From positions 1 through 54,419 of the forward strand of contig JASGCE010000001.1 of the NCBI GenBank assembly GCA_030054295.1: 54,419 nucleotides of DNA. Direction: 5' to 3'. Made by a program: the position numbers and the translations under genes. The DNA is from Minisyncoccota bacterium. GTDB taxonomy: Bacteria > Pseudomonadota > Alphaproteobacteria > Elsterales > Elsteraceae. The notes under the pieces were generated by a model, which was not told where the DNA came from, ran no database searches, and saw nothing but the letters and a program-made list of their open reading frames with translations. Each line of letters begins with the position of its first letter. Positions within the stretch are counted from its first letter, which is position 1. Below are positions 1,884 to 42,797 of the stretch, piece after piece.

Positions 1884-1911
1884 TTGACACAGGCAGGAAC
1901 TGCCCTAGAAT
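1884..1911 (+). promoter_or_regulatory. Rightward early promoter P1 with palindromic spacer
   Basis: TTGACA (1884-1889), 16 bases, TAGAAT (1906-1911). The spacer holds the palindrome GGCAG-GAA-CTGCC. It belongs to a four-member promoter family (see 5547, 6144, 6525) sharing GTGTTGACA upstream and a TATCGGAGA-type ribosome site about 40 bases downstream. It drives the genes from 1950. Confidence 0.75.
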
Positions 1912-1949
1912 ACGCATATCGACTATCCAATCTGTTATCGGAGACCTAT

Positions 1950-2258
1950 ATGAACGCAGTCGCTCAAGTCATCCAGTTCCCCGCCGCTGATGCCGATCGC
2001 CTCGGTCAGTTGGCTGCCCAGATCGCCGACCTGCAGGCGCAGTACGATTCGATCGCTGACGCCTTCCGCACCCGCGGTCAAGGTCGCTTCGAGGGTTCCA
2101 TGTTCGCCGTCACGGTCAGCGATGAGACGCTGGTCCAGACCTTCGACACGAAGGCGGCCAAGGCCAAGTTGATCGAGGCCGGTGTGAGCCAGCAGTGGAT
2201 CGACGGCAACGTGAAGATCAGCGTCCGCAAGGCCGCGGTCAAGGTGGGTGCGCGATGA
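1950..2258 (+). CDS. Conserved small early phage protein
   Basis: 102 residues. The ATG at 1950 follows TATCGGAGA. An in-frame upstream start at 1881 lies before the promoter and is rejected. An N-terminal helix LGQLAAQIADLQAQYDSIAD precedes GRFEGSMFAVTVS, a layout seen in short early proteins of many temperate and lytic phages that pair a coiled coil with a small beta domain. The function of that group is not known. First gene of the P1 transcript, joined by ATGA to the next. Confidence 0.72.
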   Translation: MNAVAQVIQFPAADADRLGQLAAQIADLQAQYDSIADAFRTRGQGRFEGSMFAVTVSDETLVQTFDTKAAKAKLIEAGVSQQWIDGNVKISVRKAAVKVGAR

Positions 2259-2515
2259 AAGTCACGTTCGCGGTACATACCCATGACAGAGGCACGATTG
2301 ATCTGGTGCAAAGCACTGTGAAGGGTAACAAGCCCAGTGATGCTGACTGGGAGCGAGCAGCACTGTCAGCAATGAAAGAGTTGGACGAGCAGACGGGCCG
2401 GAATCTTTACGGTGCGGACCCGACGCAACATCGTTGGGTAAGGAACTACTCGATCTCGTATGTATTTAAGGGTTGGGTTGAGTTTGAAGAACTCGCCCCA
2501 TCGGATTTGGGCTAG
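2255..2515 (+). CDS. Hypothetical early protein
   Basis: 86 residues from the ATG at 2255, which overlaps the preceding TGA (ATGA). Begins MKVTFAVHTHDRGTIDLV. Mixed alpha/beta composition, soluble and acidic at the end. I recognise no family. Confidence 0.62.
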   Translation: MKVTFAVHTHDRGTIDLVQSTVKGNKPSDADWERAALSAMKELDEQTGRNLYGADPTQHRWVRNYSISYVFKGWVEFEELAPSDLG

Positions 2516-2529
2516 GAATCGGAGGTTAT

Positions 2530-2745
2530 ATGACTGCTATCCCCCAGAAGCGCGAGGATGAGTTCCAGCGCCTGAGCGAGGACTTCTACCGGGCGCGTGG
2601 CATGGACCCCCGGGGCGACGACGCTCTGGTGTTCCTGATGGGTCAGGCCTACCTGCTGGGCAAGTCTGACGGCATGGACCGCGGCGCTGAGGTGTGGCGC
2701 AAGGCCTTTGAGGAAATGGCGAAGGCCTACAGGGAGGCGCCATGA
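2530..2745 (+). CDS. Hypothetical early protein, helical
   Basis: 71 residues with a good ribosome site (GGAGG) before the ATG. The sequence (MTAIPQKREDEFQRLSEDFY...) is almost all predicted helix and charged. No function recognised. The stop overlaps the next ATG by four bases. Confidence 0.62.
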   Translation: MTAIPQKREDEFQRLSEDFYRARGMDPRGDDALVFLMGQAYLLGKSDGMDRGAEVWRKAFEEMAKAYREAP

Positions 2746-2981
2746 CCCCCGGCACAGTCTTCGAGCACAAGCACTGGCGCGACCTGAAAGGCATGCCCCT
2801 GCTGTGCAAAGTGTTGGCTGTACGCAACGGCGTCGTCTACTGGGGCGAGTGGGAGCAACCCGCGGTCGCCCGACGCAGTCACTACTGGTTTGAACTATCG
2901 GAGGCCGGCAAGTACGTCGGTCAGGTTCTGGAGGGTGACCATCCCGGTCGCCCTGTGTTGCCCGAAGGGGCAGGAGGTTGA
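2742..2981 (+). CDS. Hypothetical early protein
   Basis: 79 residues. The opening MTPGTVFEHKHWRDLKGMP and WGEWEQP...YWFELSEAGKYV suggest a small beta-rich domain, comparable to the short proteins encoded next to phage replication genes. No named family. Overlaps the previous gene by four bases. Confidence 0.62.
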   Translation: MTPGTVFEHKHWRDLKGMPLLCKVLAVRNGVVYWGEWEQPAVARRSHYWFELSEAGKYVGQVLEGDHPGRPVLPEGAGG

Positions 2982-2982
2982 G

Positions 2983-3267
2983 ATGAGCGTAAGAAGTCCG
3001 GGTCCTTGGTATCTGGCCCCAGAGAAGGCTATAGGCGTAGACGGCACCCCTGTCTCCCTTGTCGTTGATGCGCAGGAACAGCCCGTAGCCAACTGTGGCT
3101 CTGGTGATATCGGTGAGTTGAATGCGCAGTTAGTTGCCTGTGCGCCCTTACTGTTATCGGTAGTACGTGCTGTTTACAGTGAGGTAGATACCCCTGCGTC
3201 TGAGTGGCATTCCAAGTGGGTGCGGGATGCTGAGGTGCTCTTGGGTCATCTTGGGGAGTTGCCATGA
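2983..3267 (+). CDS. Hypothetical early protein
   Basis: 94 residues from the ATG at 2983 with AGGAGG upstream. The opening SPGPWYLAPEKAIGVDG and the later IGELNAQLVACAPLLLSVV follow the pattern of short phage proteins with a GPW...A.....NA.L.A.AP.LL layout. This is widespread in phage early regions and of unknown function. Overlaps the next gene by four bases. Confidence 0.68.
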   Translation: MSVRSPGPWYLAPEKAIGVDGTPVSLVVDAQEQPVANCGSGDIGELNAQLVACAPLLLSVVRAVYSEVDTPASEWHSKWVRDAEVLLGHLGELP

Positions 3268-3479
3268 CACCTGAGGAGTTCAGGGGTGTGCTTTTGTCCT
3301 GTGAATTGCGGCAGATTGATGCTGCTTGGCTCTGTGGGGTTCACCCTAGGCAGGTACGTGCTTGGGTGAATGGTGAGTACCCTGTTCCTCAGTACGCCTC
3401 TCTATTGCTCTCTGCTTACGCTGAGGGGCATCTCTCACCTAAGTGGTTGGCTTCTCGGATTAAGGTTCCACCACCCTAG
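3264..3479 (+). CDS. Small helix-turn-helix DNA-binding protein
   Basis: 71 residues. Residues 13-38 (LRQIDAAWLCGVHPRQVRAW...) fit a helix-turn-helix of the XRE/Cro type: the first helix, a G-V turn, then a recognition helix ending RAWVNGE. It is probably a transcription regulator or an origin-associated DNA-binding protein. The gene is followed at once by DNA with an operator-like sequence and two DnaA-box-like repeats (3484-3528), a plausible target, though this is inference. Confidence 0.6.
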   Translation: MTPEEFRGVLLSCELRQIDAAWLCGVHPRQVRAWVNGEYPVPQYASLLLSAYAEGHLSPKWLASRIKVPPP

Positions 3480-3483
3480 TCAA

Positions 3484-3528
3484 TTTACCTTGGGTTTGGT
3501 GTGAAGTTATCCACAGGTTGTTCACAGG
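3484..3528. promoter_or_regulatory. Operator-like site plus two tandem 11-bp DnaA-box-like repeats
   Basis: TTTACCTTGG (3484-3493) equals the first ten bases of the Cro-type operator. It is followed by TTATCCACAGG (3507-3517) and TTGTTCACAGG (3518-3528), abutting copies of the 11-mer found at 680-756. A weak promoter TTCACA-16-TAGGAA could start within the second copy and serve the gene at 3584. It may be a secondary origin or a DnaA-regulated promoter. Confidence 0.4.
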
Positions 3529-3583
3529 CATCTGGTGTGGTTTAGGAACAACAGTATTTATTGGCGAATAGGAGTTTTGTGCA

Positions 3584-3805
3584 ATGAAACGTTTTTCGGA
3601 TGAAGAGTTGGATCGGCGGGCGGCTTCGGCCCTACGTCTGATCATCAGCGAGGTGGCAAGCCTTCCTGAGGTTGAGCAGTACAACGGGCCTCGGTCGACG
3701 GCTGGAGCCGCGGCTTTGGTCGTTGGGGTTGTGGTCGAGGCGTGCCGAAAAGAGGCGATCCGCCTGAACGAAATCGAGTCACGCATGATGGAGGGGATGC
3801 AATGA
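3584..3805 (+). CDS. Hypothetical early protein
   Basis: 73 residues with TAGGAG upstream of the ATG. Helical, with an alanine/valine-rich middle (TAGAAALVVGVVVEAC) that is probably a buried helix rather than a membrane span. It resembles the next protein in length and in its E..ALR(A)LASVV-like opening, so the two may be diverged relatives. Its stop overlaps the next start (ATGA). Confidence 0.6.
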   Translation: MKRFSDEELDRRAASALRLIISEVASLPEVEQYNGPRSTAGAAALVVGVVVEACRKEAIRLNEIESRMMEGMQ

Positions 3806-4038
3806 TCACCGAAGAGACTATCCGTGAGTGTGAGACGAAGGCCCTGCAGGCTTTGGCGTCTGTGGTCTATGACCTGGCGGGTCCGCCTATCGAGGGTGAG
3901 ACCAGCGACGAGCGGGTTGAGCGGTTCAACCTTGCCGGCCGGTTCCTGTACGACATGCTTCTGCAGATGGCTCAGTCCCGGGCTGCCTTGATGGTCGCCG
4001 CGGAGCAGGCTGAGGCTACCGTATCGGTGAAGCAGTGA
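3802..4038 (+). CDS. Hypothetical early protein
   Basis: 78 residues from the ATG at 3802. Mostly helical (ETKALQALASVVYDLAG...). Coupled by ATGA to the previous gene and by GTGA to the next. No family recognised. Confidence 0.6.
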   Translation: MITEETIRECETKALQALASVVYDLAGPPIEGETSDERVERFNLAGRFLYDMLLQMAQSRAALMVAAEQAEATVSVKQ

Positions 4039-4244
4039 GGGTCGATGCCGAAACCATGGCCAAGGAGTTCTACGAGGCCCGCAACCCTTCGATGAGGTGG
4101 TCGGCCTTGGCGTGGTGGGAAAAGATGCATATGGCCGTTCTGGCTGAGCGGGAAGCCTGCGCCGCGGTGTGCGATGCCATCACATGGTCCGAGGAGGGCA
4201 AGTTCTTCGCTCAGGCTATCCGTCGGCGGAATGAGCGATCGTGA
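4035..4244 (+). CDS. Hypothetical early protein
   Basis: 69 residues from a GTG at 4035 that overlaps the previous stop (GTGA). An ATG at 4056 is an alternative. The C-terminal part (MAVLAEREACAAVCDAI...) has the AEREACA(A)VC(D/E) pattern common in short phage early proteins of unknown function. Coupled by GTGA to the small membrane gene. Confidence 0.62.
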   Translation: MRVDAETMAKEFYEARNPSMRWSALAWWEKMHMAVLAEREACAAVCDAITWSEEGKFFAQAIRRRNERS

Positions 4245-4467
4245 ACACCATCGTGGGTGTAGTGGTCGCTGTCGTCTCCGCGGTGATCGTCATCATCTGG
4301 CTTGTCTTCGAGAGAGACTGACGGGCAGCCTTGCGGCGCTCATGGCGCTGATGCGCCTTGTGATATCCGCAGGGCCGCCCACCAGACGTCTCGACGCCAC
4401 ATAACGGGCACCGACGTTTGATTTCACGTTCCCAACTGGTGGGAAATTCTGGATTGTTAAAGAGCAC
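4216..4467 (-). CDS. Possible CxxC...CxxH zinc-binding protein (competes with 4241-4321)
   Basis: 83-codon leftward frame from a GTG at 4467. Residues about 20-36 read CPLCGVETSGGRPCGYH, a C-x2-C-x9-C-x2-H metal-site pattern, followed by a basic helix HKAHQRHERRKAARQ. That layout occurs in small phage zinc proteins. The C-terminal third is antisense to the rightward genes ending at 4244 and 4321 and is low in complexity. The ribosome site is weak. Either this or the 26-residue gene may be spurious. Confidence 0.35.
   Translation of the reverse strand: MLFNNPEFPTSWEREIKRRCPLCGVETSGGRPCGYHKAHQRHERRKAARQSLSKTSQMMTITAETTATTTPTMVFTIAHSADG
4241..4321 (+). CDS. 26-residue single-TM small protein
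   Basis: GTG start at 4241 overlapping the preceding TGA. The product is MNTIVGVVVAVVSAVIVIIW plus LVFERD, one membrane helix of about 20 residues and a charged tail. It is the last rightward gene before the terminator at 4504. It is supported by the coupled start and the clear membrane segment. Its small size and overlap with an opposite-strand frame lower confidence. Confidence 0.45.
   Translation: MNTIVGVVVAVVSAVIVIIWLVFERD
4429..4466 (-). promoter_or_regulatory. nut-like element: boxA plus boxB-type hairpin
   Basis: On the - strand the sequence reads TGCTCTTTAACA (4466-4455), identical to the rRNA-operon boxA core. After nine bases comes TTCCCA-CCAGT-TGGGAA (4445-4429), a six-bp stem with a five-base loop. 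That is the order and spacing of lambda nut sites. It lies downstream of the leftward gene 4513-5061 and its terminator. No N-like protein is recognised. Confidence 0.4.
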
Positions 4468-4503
4468 GTAAGGCCTGTAGTTTAGCGTGAAAATGTGCGA
4501 AAA

Positions 4504-4526
4504 GCACTATTTTTATAGGCTTTTTT
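4504..4526 (+). terminator. Intrinsic terminator of the P1 operon, possibly bidirectional
   Basis: GC-A-CTAT (4504-4510), loop TTTT, ATAG-GC (4515-4520), then six Ts (4521-4526). It ends the rightward early transcript. On the other strand the hairpin is followed by four Ts and overlaps the end of the leftward gene 4513-5061. Confidence 0.6.
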
Positions 4527-5061
4527 GCATTCTGGCCTTCAATCGATTGACCCCGCGGTCACCCCAAACCTGCATCACCATCGATCGCAAGTGCGGGTCA
4601 CCGTACACCTTCGTCGCATCGGCCGCGGCAATCTTCTCAGCCAACTTCTCGCGAAACGCCGACATGCGCTCGGTGTAAGCCTCGTCGTATCGGTTGATCG
4701 TGATGCGAGCGAGCACGGCATCCATCATGCGCAGGTCACCGATCGGGTCCTGCGTGAACTCACGCCAGAATCGCTCTGACTGCGAGTCGTGGAATTCGTG
4801 ACGGGCTGTATCCGCCGCTACCTGCTCGCGAGTCTTTTTCGGCTTTTCACCGGGTGCAGGTTTGGCAACACGAAGATCGAATAAACCCTGCCACTGGTTT
4901 GCGATCGATTGGTCGACAACTTCGGCTTGGCTGTCACCGTACGAGGTGAGTTTGATTTTCATCGCGTGTTCGCTGGCAGGCTTGATCGGCTTCTTGATGG
5001 CCTTTCGGTAAGCGACCCAGCGATCCCATGCTTCCTGATTCAGTTCGTTTTCGATAGACAT
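4513..5061 (-). CDS. Replication-protein C-terminal-domain-like protein
   Basis: 182 residues from the ATG at 5061 with AGGAGG upstream; the in-frame start at 5103 lacks such a site. Residues about 7-62 (NQEAWDRWVAYRKAIKKPIK ... VVDQSIANQWQGLF) match the conserved ending of many phage replisome-organiser and DnaT-like proteins (W-x-W-x-x-Y-R...KPIKP...SIANGWQGLF). There it is thought to contact DNA or the replicative helicase loader. Here it stands at the N-terminus of a short protein without the usual winged-helix part. The remainder is helical and charged. It is the only replication-initiation candidate in the genome and lies beside the structured region 5090-5433. Confidence 0.6.
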   Translation of the reverse strand: MSIENELNQEAWDRWVAYRKAIKKPIKPASEHAMKIKLTSYGDSQAEVVDQSIANQWQGLFDLRVAKPAPGEKPKKTREQVAADTARHEFHDSQSERFWREFTQDPIGDLRMMDAVLARITINRYDEAYTERMSAFREKLAEKIAAADATKVYGDPHLRSMVMQVWGDRGVNRLKARMQKSL

Positions 5062-5083
5062 AGTTCCTCCTGATTTAGATAAA
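5055..5083 (+). promoter_or_regulatory. Candidate rightward promoter before structured region
   Basis: TAGACA (5055-5060), 17 bases, GATAAA (5078-5083): five and four matches to the sigma70 hexamers. It overlaps the start of the leftward gene at 5061. It would start an RNA near 5090 that runs into the terminator at 5406. Confidence 0.4.
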
Positions 5084-5089
5084 TAACTA

Positions 5090-5433
5090 GTTCTTAAAAC
5101 CATGCTGAGAGCCCGAGCAAAGAGCCCCCTAACCCCATGAGAGCATGAGGCTAAAAGACCCTTCGCGACATGCCGATCGCCGTCGCATTTGAGCCGCCAG
5201 ACCGTGGTATCCGGTGTCTGGTCGATGACTTAACATCACACGGGAATTGCACCCGCCCCGCCGGCAGTAGATTTTCAACACCGTACTGAGGGTGTTGCTG
5301 CCACAGAAAGATGCGGAGGGGTTGACGAGGGATTACGAAGTAACTACTCTTCGCATCACTCTGTAGCGCAATCCCAGAGTAAGCGGATCAACTACCCGCC
5401 GTCAAGCCCCCGGACAACCCCCGGGGGCTTTTT
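5090..5433 (+). ncRNA. Candidate structured noncoding RNA (gene-free 5062-5614)
   Basis: No coding frame with a ribosome site is seen on either strand. Inverted repeats are dense: CCAGACCG/CGGT-gt-CTGG (5197-5204/5212-5221), GATG/CATC (5224/5234), CGGG/CCCG (5241/5252), GGCAG...CAACACC/GGTGTTGCTGCC (5263-5302, a 12-bp stem with an 8-base bulge), GATGCG/CGCATC (5310/5352), ACTCTG/CAGAGT (5358/5375), GCGG/CCGC (5383/5396), then a strong terminator. A promoter-like pair lies at 5055-5083. Function unknown: a regulatory RNA, an origin primer RNA or a structured leader are possible. The rest of the gap, 5434-5614, holds promoter P2 and its leader. Confidence 0.4.
5406..5433 (+). terminator. Strong intrinsic terminator
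   Basis: GCCCCCGG (5406-5413), a seven-base loop, CCGGGGGC (5421-5428), then five Ts. A perfect eight-bp GC stem. No rightward gene lies between it and 4504, so it must end an untranslated transcript or block read-through into the P2 cassette. Confidence 0.8.
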
Positions 5434-5546
5434 CGTTCTGGGCCTGCAAATTCCAGCAAACCGTATCAATCCGTAGAAATCCAAATACGTTTGACGCCTG
5501 CAAAAATGCATGGCTTTGTGTGTACCTATTTTTTTCATCGAAGGTA

Positions 5547-5575
5547 TTGCAACAGGCAGGAACACCCTCTAGACT
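5547..5575 (+). promoter_or_regulatory. Rightward early promoter P2
   Basis: TTGCAA (5547-5552), 17 bases, TAGACT (5570-5575). The spacer CAGGCAGGAACACCCTC has the left half of P1 (GGCAGGAA) and the right half of P3/P4 (CACCC), so it is a hybrid of the two palindromes. It is followed by the leader ending ATATCGGAGA before the ATG at 5615. Confidence 0.65.
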
Positions 5576-5614
5576 CTCAACCATCGAGTAACCAATCAGA
5601 TATCGGAGATACAC

Positions 5615-5875
5615 ATGAGCACTCAAGTTAAGACGATTAACCGCGAACTCTGCCCCCATGAACTGCGCCAGATTCTCGTTGGTTGGGACACATACGTTGA
5701 TTTTTACCGCACCGGTGTCACGCAAACCGAAGTCATCATCAACGGCGTTCATTACTCAGTTGAGCGTTTCCCGACGAAGCATCGCAACTACGGCACTGAG
5801 CCGGTTTACCGCGCTGTGTACCGCATGAACGGCAAGCGCGTCAGCAGGAAGGTGTGGTACGGCTACGCGGCCTGA
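5615..5875 (+). CDS. Hypothetical early protein
   Basis: 86 residues, first gene after P2, with CGGAGA upstream. Beta-rich and basic, ending YRMNGKRVSRKVWYGYAA. No family recognised. A small domain for binding nucleic acid or a host protein would fit its size and charge, but this is a guess. Confidence 0.62.
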   Translation: MSTQVKTINRELCPHELRQILVGWDTYVDFYRTGVTQTEVIINGVHYSVERFPTKHRNYGTEPVYRAVYRMNGKRVSRKVWYGYAA

Positions 5876-5892
5876 GCCTCGGGAGAAACACC

Positions 5893-6147
5893 ATGATCAA
5901 GATCGTCAAACTGATTCCGGCCAGCATGGAGCCCACGATGCGAACAGGCGGCCAGAAGCGTTCATCGGCTGTCTGGGGCGTGGAGGTCAACGGCGACGTC
6001 GTAGCGATGATCTACAGTCACAACAGCGAATACTTCATCCGCGAGTACGCCACCAGCGGCCGCATGCTGCACCACGTCTTCTGGGGCCCGAACCGATTTC
6101 AGGTCGCTAAGGACTGGGCCCTAAAGCATTTTGCTTCAGGGTGTTGA
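5893..6147 (+). CDS. Hypothetical early protein
   Basis: 84 residues from the ATG at 5893 with GGGAGA upstream. The sequence has a central stretch GVEVNGDVVAMIYSHNSEY suggesting a beta-sheet and a C-terminal helix. No family recognised. Its last codons overlap the -35 of promoter P3. Confidence 0.6.
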   Translation: MIKIVKLIPASMEPTMRTGGQKRSSAVWGVEVNGDVVAMIYSHNSEYFIREYATSGRMLHHVFWGPNRFQVAKDWALKHFASGC

Positions 6148-6172
6148 CAGGGGTGGAAACACCCTCTACCAT
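6144..6172 (+). promoter_or_regulatory. Rightward early promoter P3 with palindromic spacer
   Basis: TTGACA (6144-6149), 17 bases, TACCAT (6167-6172). The spacer contains the perfect palindrome GGGTG-GAAA-CACCC. It overlaps the end of the previous gene and drives the gene at 6207. Confidence 0.72.
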
Positions 6173-6206
6173 CTCGACATCGACCTATCGTTATCGGAGA
6201 CGCAAC

Positions 6207-6515
6207 GTGAATCAGTACAGCAAAGCCCGCGCCCGCAAGTGGCACTACAACCGACGCCCGCAGATGTCAGCCGAAGAGGCTGCGCGCTATGAGGAAGTCT
6301 CGGCGGCGTTGATTCGTTTGGAAATGAAGGCGCAGGAGTCTGGTTGGGCATACGGCGCAGTTGGCGATCGTTTCGATGTTGAAGTTCAATTCCATGCGCG
6401 TGGCCCCGACCGTGCACGTCCGCAAACGGTTTGGTATCTGTGTGGCAAGAACAGTCGTCGTCGATATGCGCTTGACGCGTTGCGTGTGGTTCTGACCATG
6501 GGCTCAGAGGCTTAA
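6207..6515 (+). CDS. Hypothetical basic early protein
   Basis: 102 residues from a GTG at 6207 with TATCGGAGA upstream. An earlier in-frame ATG at 6141 precedes the promoter and is rejected. The N-terminus is strongly basic (MNQYSKARARKWHYNRRPQ), followed by a helix (SAEEAARYEEVSAALIRLEMK) and a beta-rich end. No family recognised. It is the only gene between P3 and P4. Confidence 0.62.
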   Translation: MNQYSKARARKWHYNRRPQMSAEEAARYEEVSAALIRLEMKAQESGWAYGAVGDRFDVEVQFHARGPDRARPQTVWYLCGKNSRRRYALDALRVVLTMGSEA

Positions 6516-6524
6516 ACAAAAGTG

Positions 6525-6553
6525 TTGACACGGGTGGAAACACCCCTTACCCT
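6525..6553 (+). promoter_or_regulatory. Rightward early promoter P4 with palindromic spacer
   Basis: TTGACA (6525-6530), 17 bases, TACCCT (6548-6553). The spacer carries the same GGGTG-GAAA-CACCC palindrome as P3. It is nine bases after the previous stop and drives the gene at 6591. Confidence 0.72.
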
Positions 6554-7027: not shown

Positions 7028-7237
7028 TTACCCTTCCCGGGACGCCGGAGCGGCTGGTATGAGCCCTCCGGCGGCTTTACGCAGGCTTCCTTGCATATCC
7101 CGCCATTGGTACCGCCGCAAAGGCGGCAGGCGCCCAGAACGGACCCACTTGATCACGGCCGCGGGCGTCACACCGAATGCACGGGCGACGTTGGCCTGAT
7201 TACCGAAGCGGGCGAAGATGGCGGAGATCTCGGACAT
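7028..7237 (-). CDS. Cro/YdaS-like transcription regulator
   Basis: 69 residues. Residues 11-34 (FGNQANVARAFGVTPAAVIK...) form a helix-turn-helix of the Cro/YdaS type that precedes WVRSGRLPP, the usual continuation in that family. It is transcribed away from the recombination operon, and two identical operators lie upstream (7246-7259, 7305-7318). It therefore very likely binds them and controls its own and the operon's expression. No Shine-Dalgarno is obvious and the ATG lies just past the first operator, so the mRNA may be nearly leaderless. No CI-like partner or integrase is present, so a lysogeny switch is not shown. Confidence 0.75.
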   Translation of the reverse strand: MSEISAIFARFGNQANVARAFGVTPAAVIKWVRSGRLPPLRRYQWRDMQGSLRKAAGGLIPAAPASREG

Positions 7238-7245
7238 GCCGGCAG

Positions 7246-7327
7246 TTTACCTTGGTAAAAGCGACGTTGATAGTGGCAAAGCGAATTACCTCTTCCCTTT
7301 TACGTTTACCTTGGTAAACTCTGTATT
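7246..7327. promoter_or_regulatory. Divergent control region with two identical operators
   Basis: TTTACC-TT-GGTAAA occurs perfectly at 7246-7259 and 7305-7318, 59 bases apart. A rightward promoter TTTACG (7299-7304), 17 bases, TGTATT (7322-7327) carries the whole second operator in its spacer, so binding there would block RNA polymerase. The first operator lies next to the regulator start. The adjoining regulator gene is the obvious source of the binding protein. Confidence 0.72.
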
Positions 7328-13883: not shown

Positions 13884-15376
13884 GTCAAAACCCATCCTTC
13901 GGTGTTATCGACGAAGCGTAATTGTGCAGATGCATAAGGCGCATTCAACGTCATGTCTTCAGCAATACCCTGAATTGGTTTGCCGTTTCGAGCAATGACA
14001 TTTGTGGTGAGACCATTCGCGACAGTCACCCATACAGCATCTCCTGCTGACGGAGAACCGGGCAACGTCACCGTAGTGGCAGAGGCATTCGTAAGCACAT
14101 ATTGATTGCCGGCTGCAGCCGACTGCGTGGTGCCCGTGACGATATTCATCGTCGGCAGTCCGTTAGTGCTTGCAATCGTGATTGAGCCAGATCCGTTCGA
14201 GACGCTGATGCCAGTGCCGGCAGTCAACGTCGCCAGCGTGTAGCCGCTACCGTTACCGACCAGTAATTGGCCATTTGATGGCGTTGACGTTAGCGCCGTG
14301 CCGCCGTTTGCAACAGCGAGCGTGCCCGCCATCGTCAGCGTGCCAGACGTCGTGATTGGGCCGCCGCTGAACGACATGCCCGTCGTGCCGCCTGAGGCAT
14401 TGACCGACGTGACCGTGCCGCTGCCAGTAGCCGAAATCGTGATCGATCCGGCGCCGTTGGTGATCGTGACGCCAGTACCGGCCGTGAGGGTGGCCTTAGT
14501 CAGCGTGTTGCCGGTGCTGTTGCCAATTAGCAACTGGCCGTTGGTGTACGTGGTCTGACCCGTACCGCCGTTGGCCACAGCAAGCGTGCCAGCCAGCACC
14601 ACAGCGCCTGTAGAGGCTGCTGCAGGGGTGAGGCCGGTAGTGCCTGCACTGAATGATGTAACGCCTGCAACGCCGCCAGAAGCCGTCGTCCACGAAAGGG
14701 AACCAGAGCCGTTGGTCGTCAGTACTTGCCCGCTGGTGCCGTCTGTGTTCGGCAGGGTGTAGGTCGTTGAGCCAGCCGCGGCCGGCACGGTCATGCCGAA
14801 GTAACCAGACGTTGCGCCGTAAATGCGGATTACGTTCTTAACGTCGAGACGACCCGGAGTCGTGCCACCCAGCACCACGTTACCGGTGCCGTCATAAGTT
14901 AAATTCGAGGAGCCGGCGAGCGATCCGCTGGAGTTAAACTGGATCTCGCCAGAGTTACCAGCAGCCGCGAGCGGAACCGACGTGATGCCCGGGGCAATGT
15001 TGGTGCCGTCGCTGTAAACAAGAACGCGGAAGCCCTGCGGAACAACGGATGACGTGCCGCCACCGCCGGAGTCGATCGTGATCGAGAAAGAGCCAGTAGT
15101 GTTGTTATATACAACCCACTGACCGCCTACACCAGACGGAATGCGATAGGTGACGTTGGCCGTCAATACGCCCGTGATGATTATCGTAGGAGGACGATAC
15201 TGGCTCGTCGAGAGTGTCACCGTACCGGAGGCGCCAGTGGCGTTCAGCGTGGTCGTACCGCCAAGCGAAGCATCGATGATGTCAAAGTCGCTGTTGACCG
15301 GGGTCGACCACGTATTGACGTAGTCGCCGTTAGCCGGCTTCTCAATCGACTTGTTGGTTGTAAATGTACTAGCCAT
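13880..15376 (-). CDS. Tail-fibre protein
   Basis: 498 residues, TAGGAG before the ATG. Begins STFTTNKSIEKPANGDYVNT, typical of proteins that enter as particle-attached fibres. It continues with repeats such as GTLAVANGGTG (twice) and TLTAGTG(I/V)(S/T)(I/V), which build trimeric beta-structures. The C-terminal domain (LPGSPSAGDAVWVTVANGLT ... LRFVDNTEGWVLT) matches a common fibre end domain. It should contact the host surface. It is followed directly by the glycine-rich protein, a likely tip partner. The ANGGTG repeat is shared with the 1604-residue fibre. Confidence 0.78.
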   Translation of the reverse strand: MASTFTTNKSIEKPANGDYVNTWSTPVNSDFDIIDASLGGTTTLNATGASGTVTLSTSQYRPPTIIITGVLTANVTYRIPSGVGGQWVVYNNTTGSFSITIDSGGGGTSSVVPQGFRVLVYSDGTNIAPGITSVPLAAAGNSGEIQFNSSGSLAGSSNLTYDGTGNVVLGGTTPGRLDVKNVIRIYGATSGYFGMTVPAAAGSTTYTLPNTDGTSGQVLTTNGSGSLSWTTASGGVAGVTSFSAGTTGLTPAAASTGAVVLAGTLAVANGGTGQTTYTNGQLLIGNSTGNTLTKATLTAGTGVTITNGAGSITISATGSGTVTSVNASGGTTGMSFSGGPITTSGTLTMAGTLAVANGGTALTSTPSNGQLLVGNGSGYTLATLTAGTGISVSNGSGSITIASTNGLPTMNIVTGTTQSAAAGNQYVLTNASATTVTLPGSPSAGDAVWVTVANGLTTNVIARNGKPIQGIAEDMTLNAPYASAQLRFVDNTEGWVLT

Positions 15377-42771: not shown

Positions 42772-42797
42772 GTTTACGCCGGTAAATATTTAAGGCG

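Follow-up and report, generated by a model that had tools for sequence, protein, structure and literature searches.

In the bacterial Aca families that have been examined, an inverted repeat lies within the core promoter of the family's own operon, and the cognate Aca proteins repressed those promoters (PMC9410906). Most early small genes of the archaeal virus SIRV2 share one promoter-plus-regulatory sequence, and Aca8, a helix-turn-helix (HTH) protein that is itself preceded by the shared sequence, has been proposed to shut the early genes off (PMC11065993). Cluster A mycobacteriophages have one phage repressor with many 13-bp sites, some of them at promoters (PMC9283540), and in T4-type phages repeated early promoter elements termed PeSL precede variable small genes and serve as recombination points, as summarized in PMC4503421, citing Arbiol 2010. 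Presented here is a contig of 54,419 bp (JASGCE010000001.1; G000:C142), analyzed over its whole length and called the window below, in which four early promoters (P1 to P4) carry a shared 13-bp element, the core, between their -35 and -10 boxes, and in which a small HTH protein encoded at positions 3264 to 3479 (HTH3264) is the best candidate for the putative regulator of that core. The early regulon is conserved and real in this uncultured phage lineage, and what is new about it is its content, not its kind.

Because both ends share a 55-bp exact repeat, the window is, judged from its sequence, a complete phage genome, circular or terminally redundant. Its gene products include terminase, portal, head, and tail proteins, an endolysin, Erf, an exonuclease, NinB, and a Holliday junction resolvase. 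An integrase gene was absent from this contig (the assembly has two integrase hits, both elsewhere, on other contigs), and no CI-type repressor was recognized among the window proteins scanned. The assembly with which the phage contig was binned need not represent its host.

All four promoters lie on the plus strand. P1 (1884 to 1911) consists of a TTGACA -35 box (1884 to 1889), the core GGCAGGAACTGCC (1892 to 1904), and a TAGAAT -10 box (1906 to 1911), and P2 (5547 to 5575) has TTGCAA, the core GGCAGGAACACCC (5555 to 5567), and TAGACT (5570 to 5575). P3 (6144 to 6172) and P4 (6525 to 6553) both combine TTGACA with the core GGTGGAAACACCC (6152 to 6164 and 6533 to 6545, respectively), followed by TACCAT (6167 to 6172) in P3 and TACCCT (6548 to 6553) in P4. 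The -35 positions and a spacer length of 16 to 17 bases were first listed in an earlier note made from the letters of this DNA alone, and both were confirmed (spacers of 16 nt in P1 and 17 nt in P2, P3, and P4), with the -35 box of P2 weaker at only 4/6 consensus positions; the GGCAG-GAA-CTGCC of P1, the GGGTG-GAAA-CACCC of P3 and P4, and the hybrid of the two in P2 can likewise be read in the sequence. The leader that the note had assigned to all four units, TATCGGAGA, was found before the P1, P2, and P3 genes (at 1936, 5601, and 6192) but not before the P4 gene, which has ATCAGGAGA instead. A composite pattern (a -35 box matching at least 4/6 positions, N2-3, GGNNGNNNCNNCC, N1-3, and TANNNT) occurred exactly four times in 54 kb, compared to an average of 0.07 over 100 Markov-1 simulations, none of which gave more than 1, and five matches were reached in none of 100 shuffles in a separate control. 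The four promoters are thus real and far above chance. All composite sites in the window are at early promoters, while the bare 13-bp pattern, which is loose, occurs 28 times. P1 to P4 are most likely strong host sigma-70 early promoters.

Related records were sought by exact-pattern scan, by protein searches, and then by a motif plus -10 scan of all viral contigs. The carriers included the close relatives L004/L005, L007, and L009 to L011 and the 52-kb phage G004 (L008, L026, and L027), and the scan of viral contigs added two new carriers, L029 and L034, each of which has three promoters. The promoter family that the note had suggested searching for is therefore conserved in related phages. 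Orthologs of P1 were reached through the downstream gene in L007, L008, L009, L010, and L011; P4 has an ortholog in L004 (at 3712), and a core-bearing promoter also precedes the same gene in L034 (at 3867). The TATTGCAAC -35 element of P2 recurs at the promoters G004_Q2 and L052_a.

In total, 28 promoter sites in about a dozen related viral records yielded 18 distinct cores when aligned from the -35 box. In this register the conserved element is a 13-bp pseudo-dyad, GGNNG-N3-CNNCC, in which positions 1, 2, 5, 9, 12, and 13 are invariant and mirror-symmetric (GG..G/C..CC), an invariance that is partly by construction, as several searches required those positions. The P1 orthologs, found through their gene and hence unbiased in this respect, all keep GGNNG-N3-CNNCC and not a perfect palindrome (GGTGG-AAA-CTGCC in L007 and GGTGG-TTT-CTGCC in L008). 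The core begins 2 to 3 bp past the -35 box (2 in the main group and 3 in L044, a divergent phage considered below) and ends 1 to 3 bp ahead of the -10 box, and because these distances vary, it is an element separate from the hexamers. It lies between the two boxes, with spacers of 16 to 18 nt, at every site with a recognizable -10 box; two sites, L052_b and L053_b, have lost theirs.

Positions 3/11 and 4/10 of the core vary freely. Over the 18 distinct cores, the inner arm pairs are complementary in 6/36 cases, versus 11.6 expected from shuffled halves, with each of the two pairs complementary in 3 cores. When P3 and P4 are aligned from the -35 box, they read GGTGG-AAA-CACCC, and their perfect 5+4+5 palindrome uses an outside base, so that its center is half a base off that of the 5+3+5 palindrome of P1. 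The apparent alteration of both arms under preserved symmetry, on which the note had based its argument for a dimeric protein, is accordingly an artifact of register: the inner pairs show no covariation, and the centers of P1 and P3/P4 differ. The perfect-palindrome reading was rejected on the grounds that the arms do not covary, and in close relatives, where the note had looked to conservation of the palindromes as its test, the six outer and edge positions are kept and the perfect palindromes are not. A dimeric protein bound between the -35 and -10 boxes nevertheless stays plausible on other grounds. The reverse complement of the L044_a core (GGGTGTTTCTGCC) is identical to L004_P23 (GGCAGAAACACCC), and four cores (G004_Q2, G004_P1, L044_a, and L044_b) score 15 to 20 bits reversed versus <5 forward against the core matrix. 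The outer GG and CC pairs are separated by 11 bp, or one helical turn, a spacing that would suit a dimeric HTH protein. Given the mirror symmetry of its six fixed positions and its occurrence in either orientation, the core is likely a site for a dimeric protein.

The note had identified no protein acting at the promoters, a statement now superseded by HTH3264, the best candidate and the last gene of the P1 operon (1950 to 3479). The AlphaFold model of this 71-amino-acid protein has five helices and a pLDDT of 90.8, and Foldseek placed it near Xre-type regulators, including Aca1, Aca2, Aca10, P22 c2, and C.AhdI. HTH3264 had no NCBIfam match; it is a candidate regulator of no named family, and the core would be a new operator. 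It is encoded in every motif-bearing record covering its region (G004, L009, L011, L029, L034, and partly L004), and it is 66 to 73% identical to its orthologs in motif-bearing phages, including L029, where the P1 gene is only 39% identical. In the window, L009, L011, L029, and L044, the gene is on the same strand as, and downstream of, a core-bearing promoter.

The divergent phage L044 was found by an alignment search with HTH3264 only (66% identity). A generic -35/-10 scan there gave four same-strand hits. Three of them stand immediately ahead of a start codon, and each of these contains the core; the fourth, at 624, is without it. Two more core-bearing promoters elsewhere bring the genome to five. 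The leader and the length of the gap after the -35 box differ from those of the main group, with the core kept, and the other early window proteins had no match in 20 kb of L044. The window also encodes a second HTH protein, HTH7028, which is associated with a different predicted site, operator A (GTTTACC-NN-GGTAAAC). Both HTH7028 and operator A were absent from the whole 62-kb L044 record, whereas G004 has both HTH proteins and both operators. This differential co-occurrence in L044 versus G004 is the main argument that HTH3264 and the core belong together.

The layout matches that of the Aca systems and of the multipromoter version proposed for SIRV2, and autogenous shutoff of dispersed early units is proposed for that reason. 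P1 to P4 would fire at once after injection. As HTH3264 accumulated, a dimer would sit on each core, one subunit per GGNNG half-site, with the GG and CC pairs presented on one face, and would exclude RNA polymerase, so that the protein would silence the operon that encodes it jointly with the dispersed P2, P3, and P4 units by autogenous negative feedback. Such binding, dimerization, repression, and timing, taken together, are considered somewhat probable. Several observations weigh against this model. The Foldseek matches of HTH3264 are weak (best E value, 0.043), and no HTH model in Pfam reaches its cutoff on the protein. Most sites were found with patterns already fixing GG/G/C/CC, the independent ones being the P1 orthologs and those of L044. 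Co-occurrence is confounded by common descent, with the L044 terminase 67% identical, and L048, which has a 40% identical HTH3264 homolog, shows no core, although specificity may differ at that distance. Some -10 boxes are poor (TACCCT), which leaves room for activation.

An unlikely alternative, though one with evidence in its favor, is that the core is the operator of a different phage product, either HTH7028 or an unrecognized early protein. HTH7028 is a clear Cro-type protein, both HTH proteins co-occur in the window, G004, and L034, and many early proteins are without a family match. HTH7028, however, goes with GTTTACCNNGGTAAAC, and the L044 phage, which keeps five cores, has neither; HTH7028 is therefore disfavored as the binder of the core. 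Of the two phage HTH proteins that the note had put forward for gel shifts, HTH3264 is thus the better candidate, and HTH7028 most likely uses the other operator. It is quite unlikely that there is no regulator at all and that the spacer is conserved for host RNA polymerase or the promoters are recent duplicates homogenized by recombination. The leaders are alike within the main group, L004 shows recombination inside a P2/P3 element, and the spacing between the -35 box and the core is almost constant, all as such an explanation would have it; in L044, however, the core stays while the leader and gap differ, six spaced positions are kept while their neighbors vary, and reversed cores are not expected with RNA polymerase contacts.

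The note had raised a MerR-type activator, and the weak -10 boxes TACCCT and TACCAT could be taken to mean that the promoters depend on this or another activator bound at the spacer. MerR-family promoters need spacers of 19 to 20 nt, however, and those here, at 16 to 18 nt with mostly consensus TTGACA -35 boxes, are not overlong; a rotation of up to 2 bp between the core and the -10 box is also tolerated, and activation of this kind is judged distinctly improbable. Extrusion of the palindrome as a hairpin read by a virion-borne RNA polymerase, as at the early promoters of phage N4, is hardly credible. P1 and G004_Q3 could form a 5-bp stem with a 3-base loop, which is the N4 promoter format, but the pairing is not kept across the cores, and strong sigma-70 hexamers are present. 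Of the three largest proteins, two were compared by sequence with the PDB and all three with Pfam, and neither comparison revealed an RNA polymerase; a search with PF00940 also gave no match, but its positive control was likewise silent. For a host factor, which the note had left as an option, no regulon was seen: no further site was found in the window's own assembly (which may not be the host) or in 59 relatives. Among 84,980 species genomes, only three stray and unrelated sites were found. Each is a lone promoter in a gut member of the Firmicutes, and two are orthologs of each other, with a downstream product that resembles NrdR in its first residues. A host regulon was rejected, as none was seen in any bacterial genome searched.

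With HTH3264 as the preferred regulator, the P1 operon is close to the Aca operons (PMC9410906) in having a small HTH gene at the end of an early operon, a strong sigma-70 promoter, an operator within the core promoter, and small genes without assigned function upstream of the HTH gene, as well as in the placement of the HTH3264 model near Aca1, Aca2, and Aca10. In the window, the HTH gene closes an operon that starts from a core-bearing promoter, and L009, L011, L029, and L044 show the same-strand downstream arrangement. Unlike in Aca systems, a single HTH protein here seems to act on three to five separate promoters per genome, the operator is a degenerate pseudo-dyad and not a clear inverted repeat, and no known acr gene was recognized. 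No link to a known anti-CRISPR or anti-defense gene was found for nine cassette proteins compared with NCBIfam, none of which had a match, although absence from NCBIfam leaves a new anti-defense gene possible. By analogy, the P1 operon would work like an Aca system, and it is not classed as one. The likeness to SIRV2 is one of layout; Aca8 is a winged HTH protein acting with archaeal promoters.

The Cluster A repressor is a two-domain monomer with an asymmetric site present at more than 20 positions per genome. Here, the candidate protein has a single domain, and the sites number four or five, each located at a promoter, with either orientation represented. The L5 consensus also contains GGTGG beside a -35-like TGTCAA. 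The many oriented sites away from promoters that characterize L5-type stoperators were not seen among the composite sites of the window. PeSL pairs the promoter with a terminator-like stem-loop, whereas the symmetric element here is inside the spacer. As in lambdoid Cro/CI regulation, the operator lies within or across a promoter and the regulator is phage encoded and a (here predicted) dimeric HTH protein, but there are many scattered promoters and not one switch region, no CI-type repressor recognized among the proteins scanned, and no integrase on the contig.

HTH7028 (7028 to 7237, minus strand) resembles P22_Cro in Pfam (E = 3.9e-9) and N15 Cro (2hin; E = 1.2e-5), and it likely has operator A as its own predicted operator. 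One copy of operator A (GTTTACCTTGGTAAAA; 7245 to 7260, no strand assigned) lies at the HTH7028 start codon, and another (7304 to 7319) is inside the spacer of the facing promoter-like P5 (7299 to 7327, plus strand; TTTACG-17-TGTATT), which shares its leader with P4. A third operator A-like site (GTTTACGCCGGTAAAT) occurs far from the early region at 42772 to 42787, and also in G004 at 14952, and possibly marks a late-region promoter under HTH7028. On the minus strand upstream of P1, a divergent promoter (1848 to 1821; TTGACG-16-TAGAAT) has the same TATCGGAGA leader and no core and is bracketed by a 10-bp direct repeat, CGTAAGTGCT; at this place, G004 has operator A across the spacer and -10 box of its minus-strand promoter. 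At L052 6229 and L053 9413 (minus strand), a -35 box and core with a lost -10 box (GTGATT) are followed by a promoter-like site with operator A, an apparent handover between operator classes.

Behind each promoter is a small unit of genes to which no function was assigned, as the note had stated, and all are on the plus strand. The first gene of the P1 operon (1950 to 2258) has homologs in L007 to L011, G004, and L029, and four tightly packed genes with overlapping or nearly overlapping ORFs (open reading frames; 2255 to 2515, 2530 to 2745, 2742 to 2981, and 2983 to 3267) join it to the HTH3264 gene. The P2 unit (5615 to 6147) comprises two small genes (5615 to 5875 and 5893 to 6147), the second with a homolog downstream of L034_a; a search with the P2 gene protein found no relatives. 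The P3 unit is a single small gene with a GTG start (6207 to 6515) and has a 98% match in L004/L005 only. The P4 gene (6591 to 7025), phrog_9742, has a core-bearing promoter ahead of it in L034 and L052 as well as in the window, whereas the remaining cassettes vary from phage to phage. Homologs of the P4 gene also occur in large T4-like phages of Aeromonas and Vibrio, in Luteibacter phage Pluto, and in others.

A promoter plus one or two small genes appears to act as an exchangeable cassette. In L004/L005, both P2 genes are absent and a single promoter has P2 sequence upstream and P3 sequence downstream, with the change falling inside the core (TTGCAACAGGCAG and then AAACACCCTCTACCAT); the upstream flank of P2 and the downstream flank of P3 match L004, and the other two flanks do not. 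From these junctions, P2 and P3 are read as recombination points between relatives, and the window P2, a hybrid of P1 on the left and P3 on the right, may have arisen likewise. The promoter/operator repeats would then act as crossover points for the exchange of gene cassettes, beside a phage-encoded recombination set. If the model holds, an uncultured phage lineage gains a defined early regulon, with operator, likely repressor, and target genes, from sequence alone. A more doubtful proposition is that HTH3264 is the founding member of a new family of Aca-like master repressors over dispersed cassettes, the small hypervariable genes of which are mostly anti-defense genes. If true, the operator would be a tag for finding anti-defense genes in uncultured phages. 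In archaeal viruses, such genes have been obtained by tagging early genes through their regulatory sequence (PMC11065993); the present operator would offer a counterpart for bacteriophages, with a simple 13-bp tag.

Other matches to the pattern were set aside as chance or unrelated, by eye for L028, L032, and L033 and, for L061, L063, L065, L066, L067, and L070, with no matching HTH in the stretch examined. In L012 to L015, a homolog of the P1 gene follows a different promoter, and L012 is without the core and the HTH protein in the stretch examined. Two unrelated phages, in which no HTH3264 homolog was found, have orthologous promoters (L064 4213 to 4241 and L071 5248 to 5276) that precede a shared gene start and contain true spacer palindromes with compensated arms (GGGGTGTTACACCCC versus CGGGTGCAACACCCG).

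Just upstream of P2, about 340 nt of noncoding sequence (5101 to 5440) ends in a strong terminator (5404 to 5430). Counterparts occur in L004 (2886 to 3224; 94%), L052 (7708 to 7372; 84%), L034 (3102 to 3442; 81%), and L029 (2090 to 1740), and no match was found in Rfam, among tRNAs, or in the phage collection. The region has 19 predicted base pairs in which both partners have changed, a fold z-score of -2.4, and a 22-nt invariant stretch, GAGCAAAGAGCCCCCTAACCCC. It is a candidate for a new structured phage RNA, in which the invariant GAGCAAAGAGCCCCCTAACCCC could pair with an arm of the terminator.

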